Assembly (NCBI GenBank): GCA_938011445.1
Contig: CALLUH010000236.1
Coordinates: 1 to 32,759 of the forward strand
Reading direction: 5' to 3'
DNA from: an uncultured Hyphomonadaceae bacterium
GTDB lineage: Bacteria; Pseudomonadota; Alphaproteobacteria; Caulobacterales; Hyphomonadaceae
Length of the DNA: 32,759 nucleotides
A program made the translations under genes and the position numbers. Numbering within the stretch: the stretch's first letter is position 1; every line of letters begins with the position of its first letter. Shown here in pieces: positions 17,464 through 23,131 of this stretch. The notes under the pieces were generated by a model. The model had not been told where the DNA came from and searched no databases. It was given only the letters and a program-made list of their open reading frames with translations.

Positions 17464-20400
17464 ATGAATTGCTCGACCGCCATACGCGCGGTCGTTTTTG
17501 CGACCGCAATGGGGCTGTGTTCCCCTGTTTTTGCCCAAACTGTTGGGACAGAGGGTGTATCTGCGCGCAGCGTCGAGGCGTCGATTGACGCACCTGTCAG
17601 CATTGAGACCGGCCAGCCGTCTGGCGTCGTTACGGCTGATGAAGATGCCGCCCCTGATGCCCCGCTGCAAATCGGCTTCGAGCATGCGCCCGATCAGGCC
17701 ATGTCGATCGAACATATTGATATTATTGTTGAAAACGAAACTCTATCTGTGCGCTCGCGACGCACGGACACTGACGGTGTCCTCATCGAGGCCAGCCCGA
17801 TCTTCACCCATTTGAAGGGCAAGGTCACGCTTGAGGGCACCGTCCTTTCTAATTTGCGTTTTCAGGATGGTGCGGTGATGTCGCTTGATGTCAGCAATGG
17901 CATTGTGCGGGCAAATGGGACCGAGCTCGGGGCCTTGCCTGATTTTGAACCGCTTGAAGCGGCGACGACGTGGATCAGCCCGAACACAATCGGTATTTTG
18001 ACTGGCACGGTGCCCGAGCAGAGTGAGGCGGGCGACTGGACGTTTACGCTCGACGATCGCCTGCGTCCGCGCTTTGACCTTGATTTGTGGATCAATGGCG
18101 AGCGGACGGTGACGCCCGAGGTAGAACCGCGCACGATCGGGCCGGTTTTGCTGGTGCCGCTGGAGACGGTGGCTGAAGCGCTCGGACATGCGCTGGAGCG
18201 TTCGGACGGCAATGTCATTACGGTGACGCGGATACAGGATGCGGCGCGCATCTCGCTCGATCTGTCTACGGGACTTGTGACGGTGAACAATACGCCGCGT
18301 GGGGTGACGCCGAACATTGCTTATGCCGACCCTGATTTACTGCTATTGCCATTTACGGCTGTCGAGACGCTGACGGGCACGCATATTTTGCTGGAGCCAG
18401 GTACGAGCGATATTGTGGTGACGCTGGACGATAGGCTGGGCGGGGGCGCATTGCCCGGAGAACGCGTTGTCGATGAGGCGGCGGCGACCGGCTGGGTGCC
18501 CGAGCAATTGCAGTTTGCGCTGAGTGATCGCGGGCCAGCGACTTTGCAGCTTGATTCGCGGCTAAGCTCGCTGAACACGCAGCTACGCTATGAGACGGTG
18601 GGCGGGCTGACGCGGCCCGAGGAACTTGCACCGGGCTGGGTGTCGCTGGAGGCCCAATCGCTTAATGGCTGGGTTGGCTCTGTGGGGGATTCAAATTCGC
18701 GGTTCCGCGAACTGAGCGGGGTTGACGAAAACCGCGTGCGCGGTGTCAGCTTCCGGACGCGGCGCGAGAAGACCGGCGATATTATTGCGCTGGCCGCTGG
18801 CGTGCCGCTAAGTGGGTCGCGCGAAGTATCGTCTACGGCGTCGCGGCCGGTGTTTTCAGGCTTTGCGGGTGGGGCGCGATGGATCGCTGCGGAAGGCGAT
18901 CAAGAGTTCGGGATTTCGGCGGCGAGTACGGAAGACGGTGGCGGTAAGCGCGTTGTGATTGGCGGGCAGAAGCATTTTCGTGGCTCGGGCGAAGAGACGG
19001 GGCTACAGCCTTTCTTTGTGGCGGCGGATGCGGGCGTGTTCAATACGGTCACGGGCACGGGTGTTGATTTTCGCGGCCGCGCACAGGGGGGATACAGGTT
19101 TAACCGGCAAGCGGGTGTTCAGGCGAGTTTGAGCTATGATGGCGGACGGTTTAATCAAGGCGGCGGGCTGTCTGGCAGCGCGAGCCTTGAGGGTGCGTTG
19201 AACGGGCCGTCGGCGTCGCGCTTTGTTGGTTCGGTTTCGACCGATTGGCGGGCGGTGAAAGATTGGGGGCCGGTGTCTAATGTAGCCGCCGGTATCCGCA
19301 CAAATTATACTCGAACGGGTGGTGATAATGGGTCGTCTTCAGTGACGGTTTCGAGCGCCTTTAATGGCCGGATTACGCCGCTTGATCTGAATGTGTCCGT
19401 AGACGCATCATATTCGAATACGAAGTCGGGGGATGTCAGAGGCTCGTCACGTTCGATTGGGGTGCGGGCGTTTCGGCGGTTTGACTGGGGCAATGTGCAG
19501 GCGTCCTATTCCAACACTGTGGCAGGCGGAGAAACCACGCAGCGATTGGTGTCGAGTGTTTCCGTTTTGCCATTTCGCAAGAATCTTGGGCAAGGTGCAA
19601 GCGTTGCGGCGGGACCAACAGCGTCTGCTGTGTGGTCGCCGGAGCGGTCATTTGCACGTGTTGGGGCAACGGTTTCGGCCAATAGCGGGCAGCGTTTCGG
19701 GGAGCGCTTTAATGTGCAGGGGCAGTTCTCGGCATTGCAGTCGGTTGATCCTGAAGATTCGCGCACGCAATTCTTTGCGTCGGTGAATGCTGGTTATGCG
19801 CTCACGCGGTTTATCCGGCTTGAGAGCACTTATTTTGACAATTTCTCTGGCGCACGGGACTTTTCAGTCGCGCTGCGCGGGCGGGTGACGTTTAACGAAC
19901 CGCGCAAGCATACAAAGCCAAAAGAGGGCTTGGGCATTTTGCGGGGATCTGTTTATTTTGATCGTAATAGAGACGGGATCCGGCAGCCTGATGAGGAGGG
20001 TGTGCCGGGGGTTCGTATTCAGGTGACAGGTACAAGGCTGGCACTTGGGGTGGACAGGGACGGTTTGTTTACGATCCAGAATATGCGCACTGGGCTTTAT
20101 GGGGTGACAGTGGACCGGCGGACTTTGCCGCTGGGGCTTCTGGTGCCTGATGATGTGTCGGCGCGGGCGACGATCGGGGATGGGCGAGTGACCGAGCTTG
20201 AGATCCCGATTGTGGCAAGCGGGCAAGTGCGCGGGGCGCTGTTTGTTGATGAAAACGGGGACGGCGAGGTCACGCCCGGAGAGCATCGGGTCGAGGGCAT
20301 GTTCGTGTCTTTGTTGCGGGTTGATGAGGACGCGAAAGAGGATGAGGAGCCGGTGTCCGCCATATCGGCCTCATTCGGGCAATATAGTTTCGAAAATCTG

Positions 20401-20574
20401 TCGCCGGGGCGTTATGAGCTGAGTGTGAATTTCAAAGGCGTTATCTATTCGCGGACGGTGGAACTTGGTGAGGATAATCTTTTTGTGGTACGGCCATTTG
20501 ATCTGCCGGCGGAGGAAAGCTATGGCCCCGGCGGGGAAGACGATTATTCTGGCGGGGTGATCGGGGAAGCCTGA
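17464..20574 (+). CDS. Large outer-membrane protein, usher-like architecture
   Basis: The protein has 1036 residues with a signal peptide cleaved after VFA (residue 24). In order: a beta-rich region (~25-200); a domain like the copper-amine-oxidase N-terminal/stalk fold (~202-325, with WINGERTV and VPLETVAEALG); a long run of amphipathic, Gly/Ser/aromatic strands (~345-815) that reads as a large beta-barrel; and two SdrD/CNA-B-like sandwiches (~825-915, GSVYFDRNRDGIRQPDEEGV; ~920-1015, GALFVDENGDGEVTPGE) with calcium-loop-like Asp/Asn motifs. The tail is acidic and Gly-rich. Classical ushers have a periplasmic domain, a 24-strand barrel and two C-terminal sandwiches; the match in layout, with a PapD-like chaperone gene nearby, suggests an analogous role. 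No standard usher signature is seen, so function is inferred. Adhesin or surface anchor are alternatives. Confidence 0.72.
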   Translation: MNCSTAIRAVVFATAMGLCSPVFAQTVGTEGVSARSVEASIDAPVSIETGQPSGVVTADEDAAPDAPLQIGFEHAPDQAMSIEHIDIIVENETLSVRSRRTDTDGVLIEASPIFTHLKGKVTLEGTVLSNLRFQDGAVMSLDVSNGIVRANGTELGALPDFEPLEAATTWISPNTIGILTGTVPEQSEAGDWTFTLDDRLRPRFDLDLWINGERTVTPEVEPRTIGPVLLVPLETVAEALGHALERSDGNVITVTRIQDAARISLDLSTGLVTVNNTPRGVTPNIAYADPDLLLLPFTAVETLTGTHILLEPGTSDIVVTLDDRLGGGALPGERVVDEAAATGWVPEQLQFALSDRGPATLQLDSRLSSLNTQLRYETVGGLTRPEELAPGWVSLEAQSLNGWVGSVGDSNSRFRELSGVDENRVRGVSFRTRREKTGDIIALAAGVPLSGSREVSSTASRPVFSGFAGGARWIAAEGDQEFGISAASTEDGGGKRVVIGGQKHFRGSGEETGLQPFFVAADAGVFNTVTGTGVDFRGRAQGGYRFNRQAGVQASLSYDGGRFNQGGGLSGSASLEGALNGPSASRFVGSVSTDWRAVKDWGPVSNVAAGIRTNYTRTGGDNGSSSVTVSSAFNGRITPLDLNVSVDASYSNTKSGDVRGSSRSIGVRAFRRFDWGNVQASYSNTVAGGETTQRLVSSVSVLPFRKNLGQGASVAAGPTASAVWSPERSFARVGATVSANSGQRFGERFNVQGQFSALQSVDPEDSRTQFFASVNAGYALTRFIRLESTYFDNFSGARDFSVALRGRVTFNEPRKHTKPKEGLGILRGSVYFDRNRDGIRQPDEEGVPGVRIQVTGTRLALGVDRDGLFTIQNMRTGLYGVTVDRRTLPLGLLVPDDVSARATIGDGRVTELEIPIVASGQVRGALFVDENGDGEVTPGEHRVEGMFVSLLRVDEDAKEDEEPVSAISASFGQYSFENLSPGRYELSVNFKGVIYSRTVELGEDNLFVVRPFDLPAEESYGPGGEDDYSGGVIGEA

Positions 20575-20596: not shown

Positions 20597-21460
20597 TTAA
20601 TTGCGGAAGAAGTCGAATTCGATCTGGTAACGCAAATCACCAGCGCCAAGAGACAAATCATAGCCTTCAAAGCCGTAGACATAATCAAAGCGAATGGACT
20701 GTTCGGGCAGATCATCGTCGAATTCGCGTCGGATCGCGGTCGGAAATTCGGCGATGAATTGTGCGCTTGACGAGAGCGGGCCAAGGCTGTCGAAATTGCC
20801 AAGCTTGCGGAAACCACCCTGGGTGGCTGCACCGCCAAAGGCCATGCCGTCATCATTGCCTTGGGCGGTGATGCCATAATCGAAGCGGACATTGTTCAGG
20901 CGTGACACCTGATTAAGCGCGTCGGTGCCGCCGGTCAGCGTGGAGCGGGCAGAGATGCGGAAACCTGTTGTGCGCGAGGAGATGTAGAAGCTGCGCTGGG
21001 TTGAGGTATCGAGTACGCGCAGTGTGGTGTTCTGGTTGAGCTGGACCGTGCCAAAGACATCTCCCGCATCGAGAAAACCATTGCTGTTTCCGATGGCTTG
21101 AAGGTCTGGCGTGCCATTGCCGTTTTGATCAAAGCCCAGACGAGCGCCTTGTGTGTCGGTGGCGATGACGTGGAAGCCTTCAGTGCGGGAGCCTGTGAAG
21201 ACGGGATTGACCTCGCCTGTTCCCTGAAATGGATTGCCCGTCCACGGAATAAGTTCACCGCCGGGGGGGACGGTGCCATTATTGGTGAAAATGTGGACGT
21301 CATAGACATCGAAAGAGAAGCCGTCATGGACAATGACGCAGCCCTTTACGCGGCAGAAGAAATCTGAATCCAGAAAAGATGCATGTGCGGGTGCACTAAC
21401 CAGACAGGCCGGGCAAAGCGCCCCCAGTAGCAGGGCCGAGCGGCGTGCGCGGCCAGCTAT
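20597..21460 (-). CDS. Secreted protein with calcium-loop motifs, ATA start
   Basis: An unbroken frame runs leftward to the stop at 20597 but holds no ATG, GTG or TTG that would include its signal peptide; the first GTG is at 20908, deep in the protein. Reading from an ATA at 21460, which overlaps the chaperone stop, gives 287 residues with a perfect signal peptide: basic AGRARRS, a hydrophobic core, and cleavage after PAHA (residue 27). Mature features are a Cys pair (C36, C41), a calcium-loop-like DQNGNGTPD (111-119) followed by NSNGFLDAGD (125-134), many beta-strands, and an aromatic C-terminus (IEFDFFRN). It is probably a substrate of the upstream chaperone. I do not recognise the family. 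An assembly error or CTG start are alternatives. Confidence 0.7.
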   Translation of the reverse strand: MAGRARRSALLLGALCPACLVSAPAHASFLDSDFFCRVKGCVIVHDGFSFDVYDVHIFTNNGTVPPGGELIPWTGNPFQGTGEVNPVFTGSRTEGFHVIATDTQGARLGFDQNGNGTPDLQAIGNSNGFLDAGDVFGTVQLNQNTTLRVLDTSTQRSFYISSRTTGFRISARSTLTGGTDALNQVSRLNNVRFDYGITAQGNDDGMAFGGAATQGGFRKLGNFDSLGPLSSSAQFIAEFPTAIRREFDDDLPEQSIRFDYVYGFEGYDLSLGAGDLRYQIEFDFFRN

Positions 21461-22314
21461 GGATTCAGCTCTGTGCTGTCGGTGCCAGCACCAGGTTCTG
21501 ATGGGCGGACAGATTGGGACACGCGATAAGGCGGCAGAGCCAGTGTTTCGCCATTTGTCTGCGGGGCGAAAATATTGTTCAGGCGCACTTCAATCGAGGC
21601 ATCGTCGGACAGATTGTCGGGCAAGCGTGTGACGTAATCGCGGCGACCTTCATGCAGCACAACGAGATTGGAGACCGGCACGGTTTCGGTTGCACCGCCG
21701 GACGTGATCTCGATTACCCCTTGCAGGCGGGCGTGGGCATTGCCGGAGTTTTCGATGCCGAGATGTAGATTGCGCACGCCTTCATCATTGATGCTGACCT
21801 CGCCGCCCGTAATGGTCGCTTCGCTTTGGGCCGAGCCGGTGGTCAGATAGAACAGGGTGGCAATCTGATACTTCTTCCAGACGCCCGATTGGCCGGTGCG
21901 CTCCTCTGGCAGAACCGTCGAGGCGAGCAAGGCAAAGCGGTAGTCGCCAGACCGGCTCAGCCTTGTTGGCGTTGACATATCGACGATGACCTGTTCGGCT
22001 TCGCCGGGCTTGAGGGTGAGGAAAGCGGGGCTGAAGCGTGCCCATCCGGCAGCCGAAGAGGCCGTTTCGTCTGGCGGGGAGAGCTGGATCTGACCATTAT
22101 CGTCGAGCGACCAGTCGGCAAGGCCGAGCGTGAGCGAAATGGTTTTTTCGGTATGGACGTTTGCGATATTGACAACTTGCCGATTGCGTTCGCCCGGGGC
22201 GACTTCGATTTCGACGGTGGTGGGCTGTAGCCCGATGCCGAACGTCCATGCGGGGAAAGCCGCAAGGCCGAGTGCTGTGGCCAGAACAAATGTGCGAAAC
22301 GACAAGATGCGCAT
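21457..22314 (-). CDS. PapD-like periplasmic pilus chaperone
   Basis: The 285-residue protein has a signal peptide (hydrophobic core residues 9-20, cleavage near 22-24) and a two-domain immunoglobulin-like fold. IGLQPTTVEIEVAPGERNRQVVNIAN resembles the first strands of fimbrial chaperones, and LTLKPGEAEQVIVDMSTPTRLSRSGDYRFALLAS is the F/G-strand region typical of the PapD superfamily. A second beta domain starts around SEATITGGEVSI. The Arg and Lys that anchor the substrate C-terminus in PapD are not obvious: the first strand has QPTT and the strand before the second domain reads YQIATLFYL. It should protect secreted subunits in the periplasm. It is followed, with a 4-nt overlap, by the secreted protein gene. 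Confidence 0.82.
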   Translation of the reverse strand: MRILSFRTFVLATALGLAAFPAWTFGIGLQPTTVEIEVAPGERNRQVVNIANVHTEKTISLTLGLADWSLDDNGQIQLSPPDETASSAAGWARFSPAFLTLKPGEAEQVIVDMSTPTRLSRSGDYRFALLASTVLPEERTGQSGVWKKYQIATLFYLTTGSAQSEATITGGEVSINDEGVRNLHLGIENSGNAHARLQGVIEITSGGATETVPVSNLVVLHEGRRDYVTRLPDNLSDDASIEVRLNNIFAPQTNGETLALPPYRVSQSVRPSEPGAGTDSTELNP

Positions 22315-22345
22315 GTAAGATTAACCCTCATTAACTGTGCGCTGG

Positions 22346-22377
22346 AACCTTGCCACAAAGTTCGTTACCGCAAGGTT
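22346..22377. promoter_or_regulatory. 8-bp perfect inverted repeat in a divergent promoter region
   Basis: AACCTTGC (22346-22353) and GCAAGGTT (22370-22377) form a perfect inverted repeat with a 16-nt spacer, two helical turns from centre to centre. It lies 32 nt from the chaperone start on one side and about 60 nt from the phosphatase start on the other. A dimeric regulator could bind here. Confidence 0.4.
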
Positions 22378-22438
22378 TACATCAGTTAGGCCGCTTGGGT
22401 CTTGTGACAACTTGGCGGCGGGTGCTAAGCGCACTGGC

Positions 22439-23131
22439 ATGGGCAAACGCCGCAAGAATCGCAAGCCGCACATTGTAGCGGATCTGGGCACGCCCGAGGG
22501 CCGTAAGCGCGCACGAGCCGAGATGATTTGGGGCGATCACGGATTTTTGCGGGCGCGATTTTCCAATTTGCACGCGATTTCAGAGGAGATGTGGCGGGCC
22601 AACCAGCCCTCGCCGCGCCAGATTGCAGGGCACAAGGCCGAGCGCGGTATTCGCACGATCATTAATTTGCGTGGGGTTTCGACGCGCGGATATTATTTGC
22701 TGGAACGCGAAGCCTGTGCGGCGGCGGGCATTGAGCTTCTTGATTATCAAGTGTTTTCGAGGGACACGCCGACACGAGAGACGGTTTTGGGCGTGCGGGA
22801 GCTGTTTGAGGGGCTTAGCTATCCGGCTTTGATGCATTGCAAATCCGGTGCAGACAGGGCGGGATTGATGGCGGTTCTGTATTTGATTGCCCGTCAGAAT
22901 CTGCCAGTTTCAGAGGCGATTGGGCAGCTTGGTTTCAAATATCTGCACGTTAAACAGGGTAAGACAGGGATGCTGGACGCGTTTTTCGCCGCGGCGCTGG
23001 CTGCGGGTGCGGATCGGCCTGAGGATTTTTTTGCATGGATTACTTCTGATTATGACCGGATGGCGATCAAGGGTGCTTTTCTGGAACGGCGGCAAAGGCT
23101 CGATCTGGCGTGGATTTTAGGGCGGGAATAG
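22439..23131 (+). CDS. Dual-specificity/tyrosine phosphatase family protein
   Basis: The 230-residue cytosolic protein has the cysteine phosphatase loop HCKSGADRAG; C134 is the nucleophile and R140 the phosphate-binding arginine, with the general-acid Asp likely in the FSRDTPT segment. GIRTIINLRGVSTRGYYLLEREACAAAGIELL upstream is the usual fold core. The N-terminus MGKRRKNRKPH is strongly basic. The ATG at 22439 is chosen although the frame is open to 22337, since the extra part is unlike a phosphatase and covers the promoter region. Relatives act on phosphotyrosine, phosphoinositides or cell-envelope precursors; the substrate is unknown. It is divergent from the chaperone gene. Confidence 0.88.
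   Translation: MGKRRKNRKPHIVADLGTPEGRKRARAEMIWGDHGFLRARFSNLHAISEEMWRANQPSPRQIAGHKAERGIRTIINLRGVSTRGYYLLEREACAAAGIELLDYQVFSRDTPTRETVLGVRELFEGLSYPALMHCKSGADRAGLMAVLYLIARQNLPVSEAIGQLGFKYLHVKQGKTGMLDAFFAAALAAGADRPEDFFAWITSDYDRMAIKGAFLERRQRLDLAWILGRE

Follow-up and report, generated by a model that had tools for sequence, protein, structure and literature searches.

The locus and its four-base junction

The DNA analysed here (the window, 32,759 nucleotides in length) is contig 236 of a MAG that is 88% complete, and the relatives used for comparison are members of the Hyphomonadaceae, including Henriciella. On its minus strand, the window carries a gene for a putative periplasmic chaperone followed by a gene for a putative secreted protein. 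The stop codon of the first overlaps the proposed start codon of the second, with the junction letters CC-ATAG-C. The features are as follows.

21457 to 22314, minus strand: upstream chaperone gene, 285 amino acids, predicted periplasmic two-domain beta-sandwich with a PapD/CsuC-like fold, ending ...ELNP-TAG
21468 to 21473, minus strand: weak Shine-Dalgarno (SD)-like CAGAGC, 7 nucleotides upstream of the ATA (-2.1 kcal/mol)
21457 to 21459, minus strand: chaperone stop codon TAG overlapping the ATA (ATAG in the window, ATAA in sister species G002)
21458 to 21460, minus strand: proposed ATA start codon of the secreted-protein gene; aligned ATA in G002 without a canonical alternative, ATG at the equivalent place in relatives
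20597 to 21460, minus strand: secreted-protein gene, which has 287 codons and a stop codon when read from the ATA and is without a known family
21380 to 21460, minus strand: predicted signal peptide from the ATA, kept in G002 with a different sequence (dN/dS 0.45)
20906 to 20908, minus strand: GTG, the frame's first canonical codon, not accepted as the start (dN/dS 0.12 upstream of it)

The secreted-protein frame comprises 330 codons that are open from 21589 to 20600 and end at a TAA codon (20599 to 20597), and its earliest ATG, GTG, or TTG is the GTG at 20908, which is codon 228 of the 330. This long run without a canonical start codon had been described in the original prediction, whose bounds (21587 and 20599) were off by one or two bases. 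Reading from the ATA gives a product that begins (M)AGRARRSALLLGALCPACLVSAPAHA, continues after the predicted cleavage site with SFLDSDFFC, and runs to 20600. At its N-terminus, a basic n-region leads into a hydrophobic core, and the cleavage motif is AHA. The sharing of bases between this ATA and the chaperone TAG at 21459 to 21457 is also as originally described, and a gene caller limited to canonical codons would indeed begin at 20908, dropping the signal peptide and two thirds of the protein.

A structural model of the chaperone (pLDDT 80) yields Foldseek matches to CsuC and CfaA (the top matches), FimC, and PapD with E values of about 1e-8 to 1e-6, and its two Ig-like domains are structurally similar to those of PapD/CsuC (TM 0.4-0.5). 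Searches of family profiles returned no Pfam match and only a sub-cut-off NCBIfam match to choice_anch_T. Because there is no match to a PapD profile, we describe the protein as one that, judging from its model, probably works like the PapD/FimC type, and do not file it as a member of that family. When a pilin fold or profile was looked for in the secreted protein, there was no Pfam or NCBIfam match and no significant match to PDB sequences, and the model (pLDDT 41) is too poor to be informative. A plasmid search gave no match.

The chaperone-secreted pair is conserved in the relatives examined, and in most of these loci a divergent phosphatase-like gene is conserved alongside it. The window copy of the latter (22337 to 23131, plus strand) is syntenic with the pair across Henriciella relatives; similarity begins only at residue ~35-40 of the open reading frame, and the real start is probably downstream of the listed GTG. 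Convergent with the pair lies a gene (17464 to 20574, plus strand) for a 1036-amino-acid secreted protein with SdrD_B and carboxypeptidase-regulatory-like domains, which among the loci examined was found only in G002 and not in the flanks of the sampled relatives. Distant paralogues of the secreted protein under study, with about 30-37% identity, occur at L002 (1471-2298), L011, and L009; these are located elsewhere in the same or related genomes and start with canonical ATG codons.

Conservation and selection at the proposed start

The sister species G002 (CALLCD010000022.1) has 80% DNA identity to the window at a dS of about 0.8. It also has ATA at the aligned start position, again inside the chaperone stop codon, which there is TAA. 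The secreted-protein frame of G002 is closed upstream by an in-frame TAG and TGA, the TGA being located 14 codons before the ATA. The codons that follow this TGA are TGC GCC CGC GAC AGA GGC CAT CCA AGC GGA GCC AAC TCC ATA ACG CGC GCG CTT ... TAT GCC / TCT TTC CTC GAT (the slash marks the start of the mature protein), and there is no ATG, GTG, or TTG among them ahead of the mature protein, just as there is none in the window before 20908. The sole AUG-like codon located at the same place in both species is the ATA, which precedes the mature start by 27 codons in the window and by 26 in G002.

Thus, the ATA is retained in both of the sampled congeneric genomes that carry the gene, although this conservation concerns one species pair and both carriers are incomplete MAGs. 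The conservation of three bases within a region of 80% identity would be weak evidence for a start codon on its own. The pattern of substitutions between the two species adds to it. Over the 158 mature codons ahead of the GTG at 20908, dN/dS is 0.12, compared to 0.07 after this GTG and 0.45 in the signal peptide; for the whole secreted protein it is 0.13 at a dS of about 0.8. Because purifying selection is strong before the GTG, this stretch is evidently translated and functional, as judged from the substitution pattern. This removes the GTG start and makes readings based on a pseudogene or a base error unlikely.

Ten distinct relatives outside the genus (L005, L006, L007, L008, L017, L020, L021, L022, L030, and L031) have the same chaperone-secreted pair, and their secreted-protein gene begins with an ATG that is in frame and where it would be expected, about 22-35 codons ahead of the mature protein. 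For example, ATG GCG GGC of L006 aligns with ATA GCT GGC of the window. The original prediction, which held that ATG at this junction in relatives would speak against an ATA start, therefore receives a divided answer, with ATA found in the congener and ATG outside the genus. Since the congener has ATA, the difference reads as a lineage-specific replacement of the start codon.

The ATG in these relatives, together with the origin of the window from a MAG, might instead suggest that the window contains a base-calling or assembly error and that the true codon is ATG. This seems very improbable, because the ATA recurs in a separate MAG, that of the sister species, amid surroundings of 80% identity and with TAA in place of TAG, and because ATG in the window would remove the chaperone stop and add about 37 codons to that frame. 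Similarly, loss of an ATG is a usual first step of gene decay, and congener G001 lacks the secreted-protein gene, so one could imagine a gene that has lost its start codon and no longer yields protein. We regard this as equally improbable, given that the frame is intact in both species, the overall dN/dS remains low despite the divergence, and both the signal peptide and the final residues of the protein are kept in each.

It had also been proposed that a single ATG-to-ATA change created the chaperone stop and the rare start together. In support of this idea, the ATA and TAG of the window share the base concerned, and an ATG would convert the stop to TGG. However, the stop of G002 is TAA, and with an earlier ATG there the chaperone would have ended at TGA all the same, which means that its stop may be older than the ATA. 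With two genomes to compare, either change may have come first.

Proposed initiation at the overlap

We consider it probable that the secreted-protein gene is translated from the AUA at 21460 to 21458 by reinitiation after termination of the chaperone, and the two parts of this proposal differ in strength. The AUA start codon is well supported by the sequence comparisons, because the ATA is shared, neither species has a canonical start, and selection acts on the part of the protein encoded before the first canonical codon. Termination-reinitiation at the AUAG/AUAA overlap is plausible and the likeliest mechanism, being suggested by the four-base geometry of these co-directed genes, which is that of AUGA pairs. 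Stop/start overlaps of this kind couple translation by termination-reinitiation in Escherichia coli and Haloferax (PMC6728339).

An AUG at a four-base overlap would demand UGA as the chaperone stop, whereas AUA permits UAA or UAG. Because the window's chaperone would lose its stop if the ATA were ATG, the ATA and the stop hold each other in place in this species. In G002, the ATA is retained although the stop does not depend on that base. The sequence aligned with CAGAGC is CGGAGC in G002, where the SD pairing is moderate (-5.8 kcal/mol) and stronger than in the window; on this scale the median of random sites is -1.5 and the best 5% reach -5.1 kcal/mol. RNA structure at the junction is not convincingly better than shuffled sequence in both species (z -1.2 and -2.0). 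The Pro codon CCA at the chaperone end was considered as a signal of constraint and set aside, since it makes up about 12-16% of Pro codons and is thus too common to be informative.

The fair SD pairing of G002 bears on another possibility, which is that ribosomes start at CTG or ATC codons within the signal peptide, or begin de novo at the ATA by way of the SD-like GAGC without coupling to the chaperone. CTG codons are present in the h-region of the window and ATC in that of G002. However, these other near-cognate codons (CTG in the window; ATC, ACG, or CTG in G002) are not at the same place in the two species, and a protein begun within the hydrophobic core would have no basic n-region. Although we regard this mode of initiation as improbable, it survives better than the other alternatives, and de novo initiation at the ATA would leave the claim for the start codon standing.

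Since the secreted-protein frame is -1 relative to that of the chaperone and is open upstream in the window, a programmed -1 frameshift near the chaperone end could in principle yield a fusion of the two proteins. This has almost nothing to commend it, given that neither species has an X-XXY-YYZ slippery heptamer in the last 150 nucleotides, the G002 frame is closed by the TGA upstream of the ATA, relatives make separate proteins from ATG, and a fusion would bury the signal peptide. Equally hard to credit is translation from the GTG at 20908, the first canonical codon of the frame and the start that a caller restricted to ATG, GTG, and TTG would choose, because it forfeits 184 codons that include the signal peptide and the 158 aligned mature codons, on which purifying selection is strong, and because the first canonical codon of G002 is elsewhere.

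Translation from the AUA might proceed as follows. Having completed the chaperone at UAG (UAA in G002), ribosomes would start again at the AUA that overlaps this stop, and there the formyl-Met initiator tRNA would pair inefficiently, with a third-base mismatch, as at the infC gene of this lineage. AUA starts are weak, and synthesis of the secreted protein would therefore reach a fraction of the chaperone level while remaining coupled to it; its output would also be sensitive to initiation factor IF3. Such sensitivity is plausible. The signal peptide would then direct export of the product, and the PapD-like chaperone would handle it.

AUA starts in the lineage and in known systems

The infC gene, which encodes IF3, is essential and autoregulated in E. 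coli. At its homologous start, 26 of 30 family loci have ATA and the other four have ATC. The ATA is near-invariant across the Hyphomonadaceae (loci L044, on the minus strand with ATA near 1757, L045, and L069-L096), the four ATC loci belong to genus g4, and at the level of the order ATA, ATT, and ATC are all present. In congener G001, the frame reads stop-CCC-ATA-GCC, such that no canonical codon is possible, and in L088 it reads TGA-GCT-ATA. The infC site of the window's genome is CCC ATA GCC CGC; TTG codons occur further upstream in this frame, so the start was assigned by homology. Because infC begins at ATA in this lineage, its ribosomes evidently start at AUA, to judge from these alignments. 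The ATA start with signal peptide that was originally predicted is thus supported by the ATA of G002, the ATG of ten relatives, purifying selection, and the use of AUA by infC.

Start codons were surveyed in gene pairs whose proteins are reciprocal best matches, drawn from about 0.77 Mb of the window's genome (G000) and 0.33 Mb of G002. Among 124 gene pairs with complete 5′ frames, the present locus is the only clear non-canonical start, and no other pair comes near it in the length of conserved protein that precedes any canonical start (60 residues where it is shorter). Inspection by eye accounts for the 19 further pairs that were flagged: their upstream runs are short, the similarity is antisense-like, or a canonical codon is evident where the conserved protein begins. 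Because no other clear case was left, AUA starts appear to be rare in the genus rather than general. The enzyme TilS makes the tRNA-Ile that reads AUA. Its gene is present, so internal AUA codons should still specify Ile. Recoding of AUA throughout the lineage is unlikely, given tilS and the absence of any other clear non-canonical start among the 124 pairs.

Natural AUA starts are a known but rare kind, and the variant described here is a conserved AUA fused to a UAG or UAA stop at a chaperone-secreted pair. Like the secreted-protein gene, infC keeps a rare AUH start (AUU, AUC, or AUA, including in the Hyphomonadaceae) across species, and in this genus that start is AUA. However, infC has a strong SD here (-6.2 kcal/mol in the window's genome), whereas the present gene is an export gene whose start lies inside a stop codon. 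Natural AUA starts outside infC also occur in Staphylococcus aureus ccpN and citZ, where they dampen translation, and S. aureus reporters with natural AUA starts reach about 10-30% of the level seen with AUG (PMC13009471). Those starts were mapped experimentally and have extended SD motifs, and the available portion of that report describes no start/stop overlap (PMC13009471).

In Listeria, an ATG-to-ATA change in the start of rsbW lowers translation; there too a downstream gene that overlaps its upstream partner (rsbV) starts at ATA, and the ratio of the partners is lowered (PMC13068326). Those are mutants within a species with a 17 bp overlap, in contrast to the fixed, four-base ATAG/ATAA of two species (PMC13068326). 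AUGA (-4) pairs with termination-reinitiation share the geometry of the chaperone-secreted pair, whose products plausibly act together; AUG at -4 permits UGA only, whereas AUA here permits UAG or UAA (PMC6728339, PMC10666635).

Apart from infC, conserved AUA starts have rarely been documented in bacteria, and gene callers limited to ATG, GTG, and TTG cannot see them. In the AUAG/AUAA fusion, nature provides a test of whether ribosomes that reinitiate will accept near-cognate start codons. We speculate, with considerable doubt, that in this genus an IF3-sensitive AUA start is common to infC and the secreted-protein gene, which would form a small IF3-controlled set fixed by evolution. If so, export of the secreted protein would be tied to IF3 activity by way of a start codon that lies within the upstream gene's stop codon.
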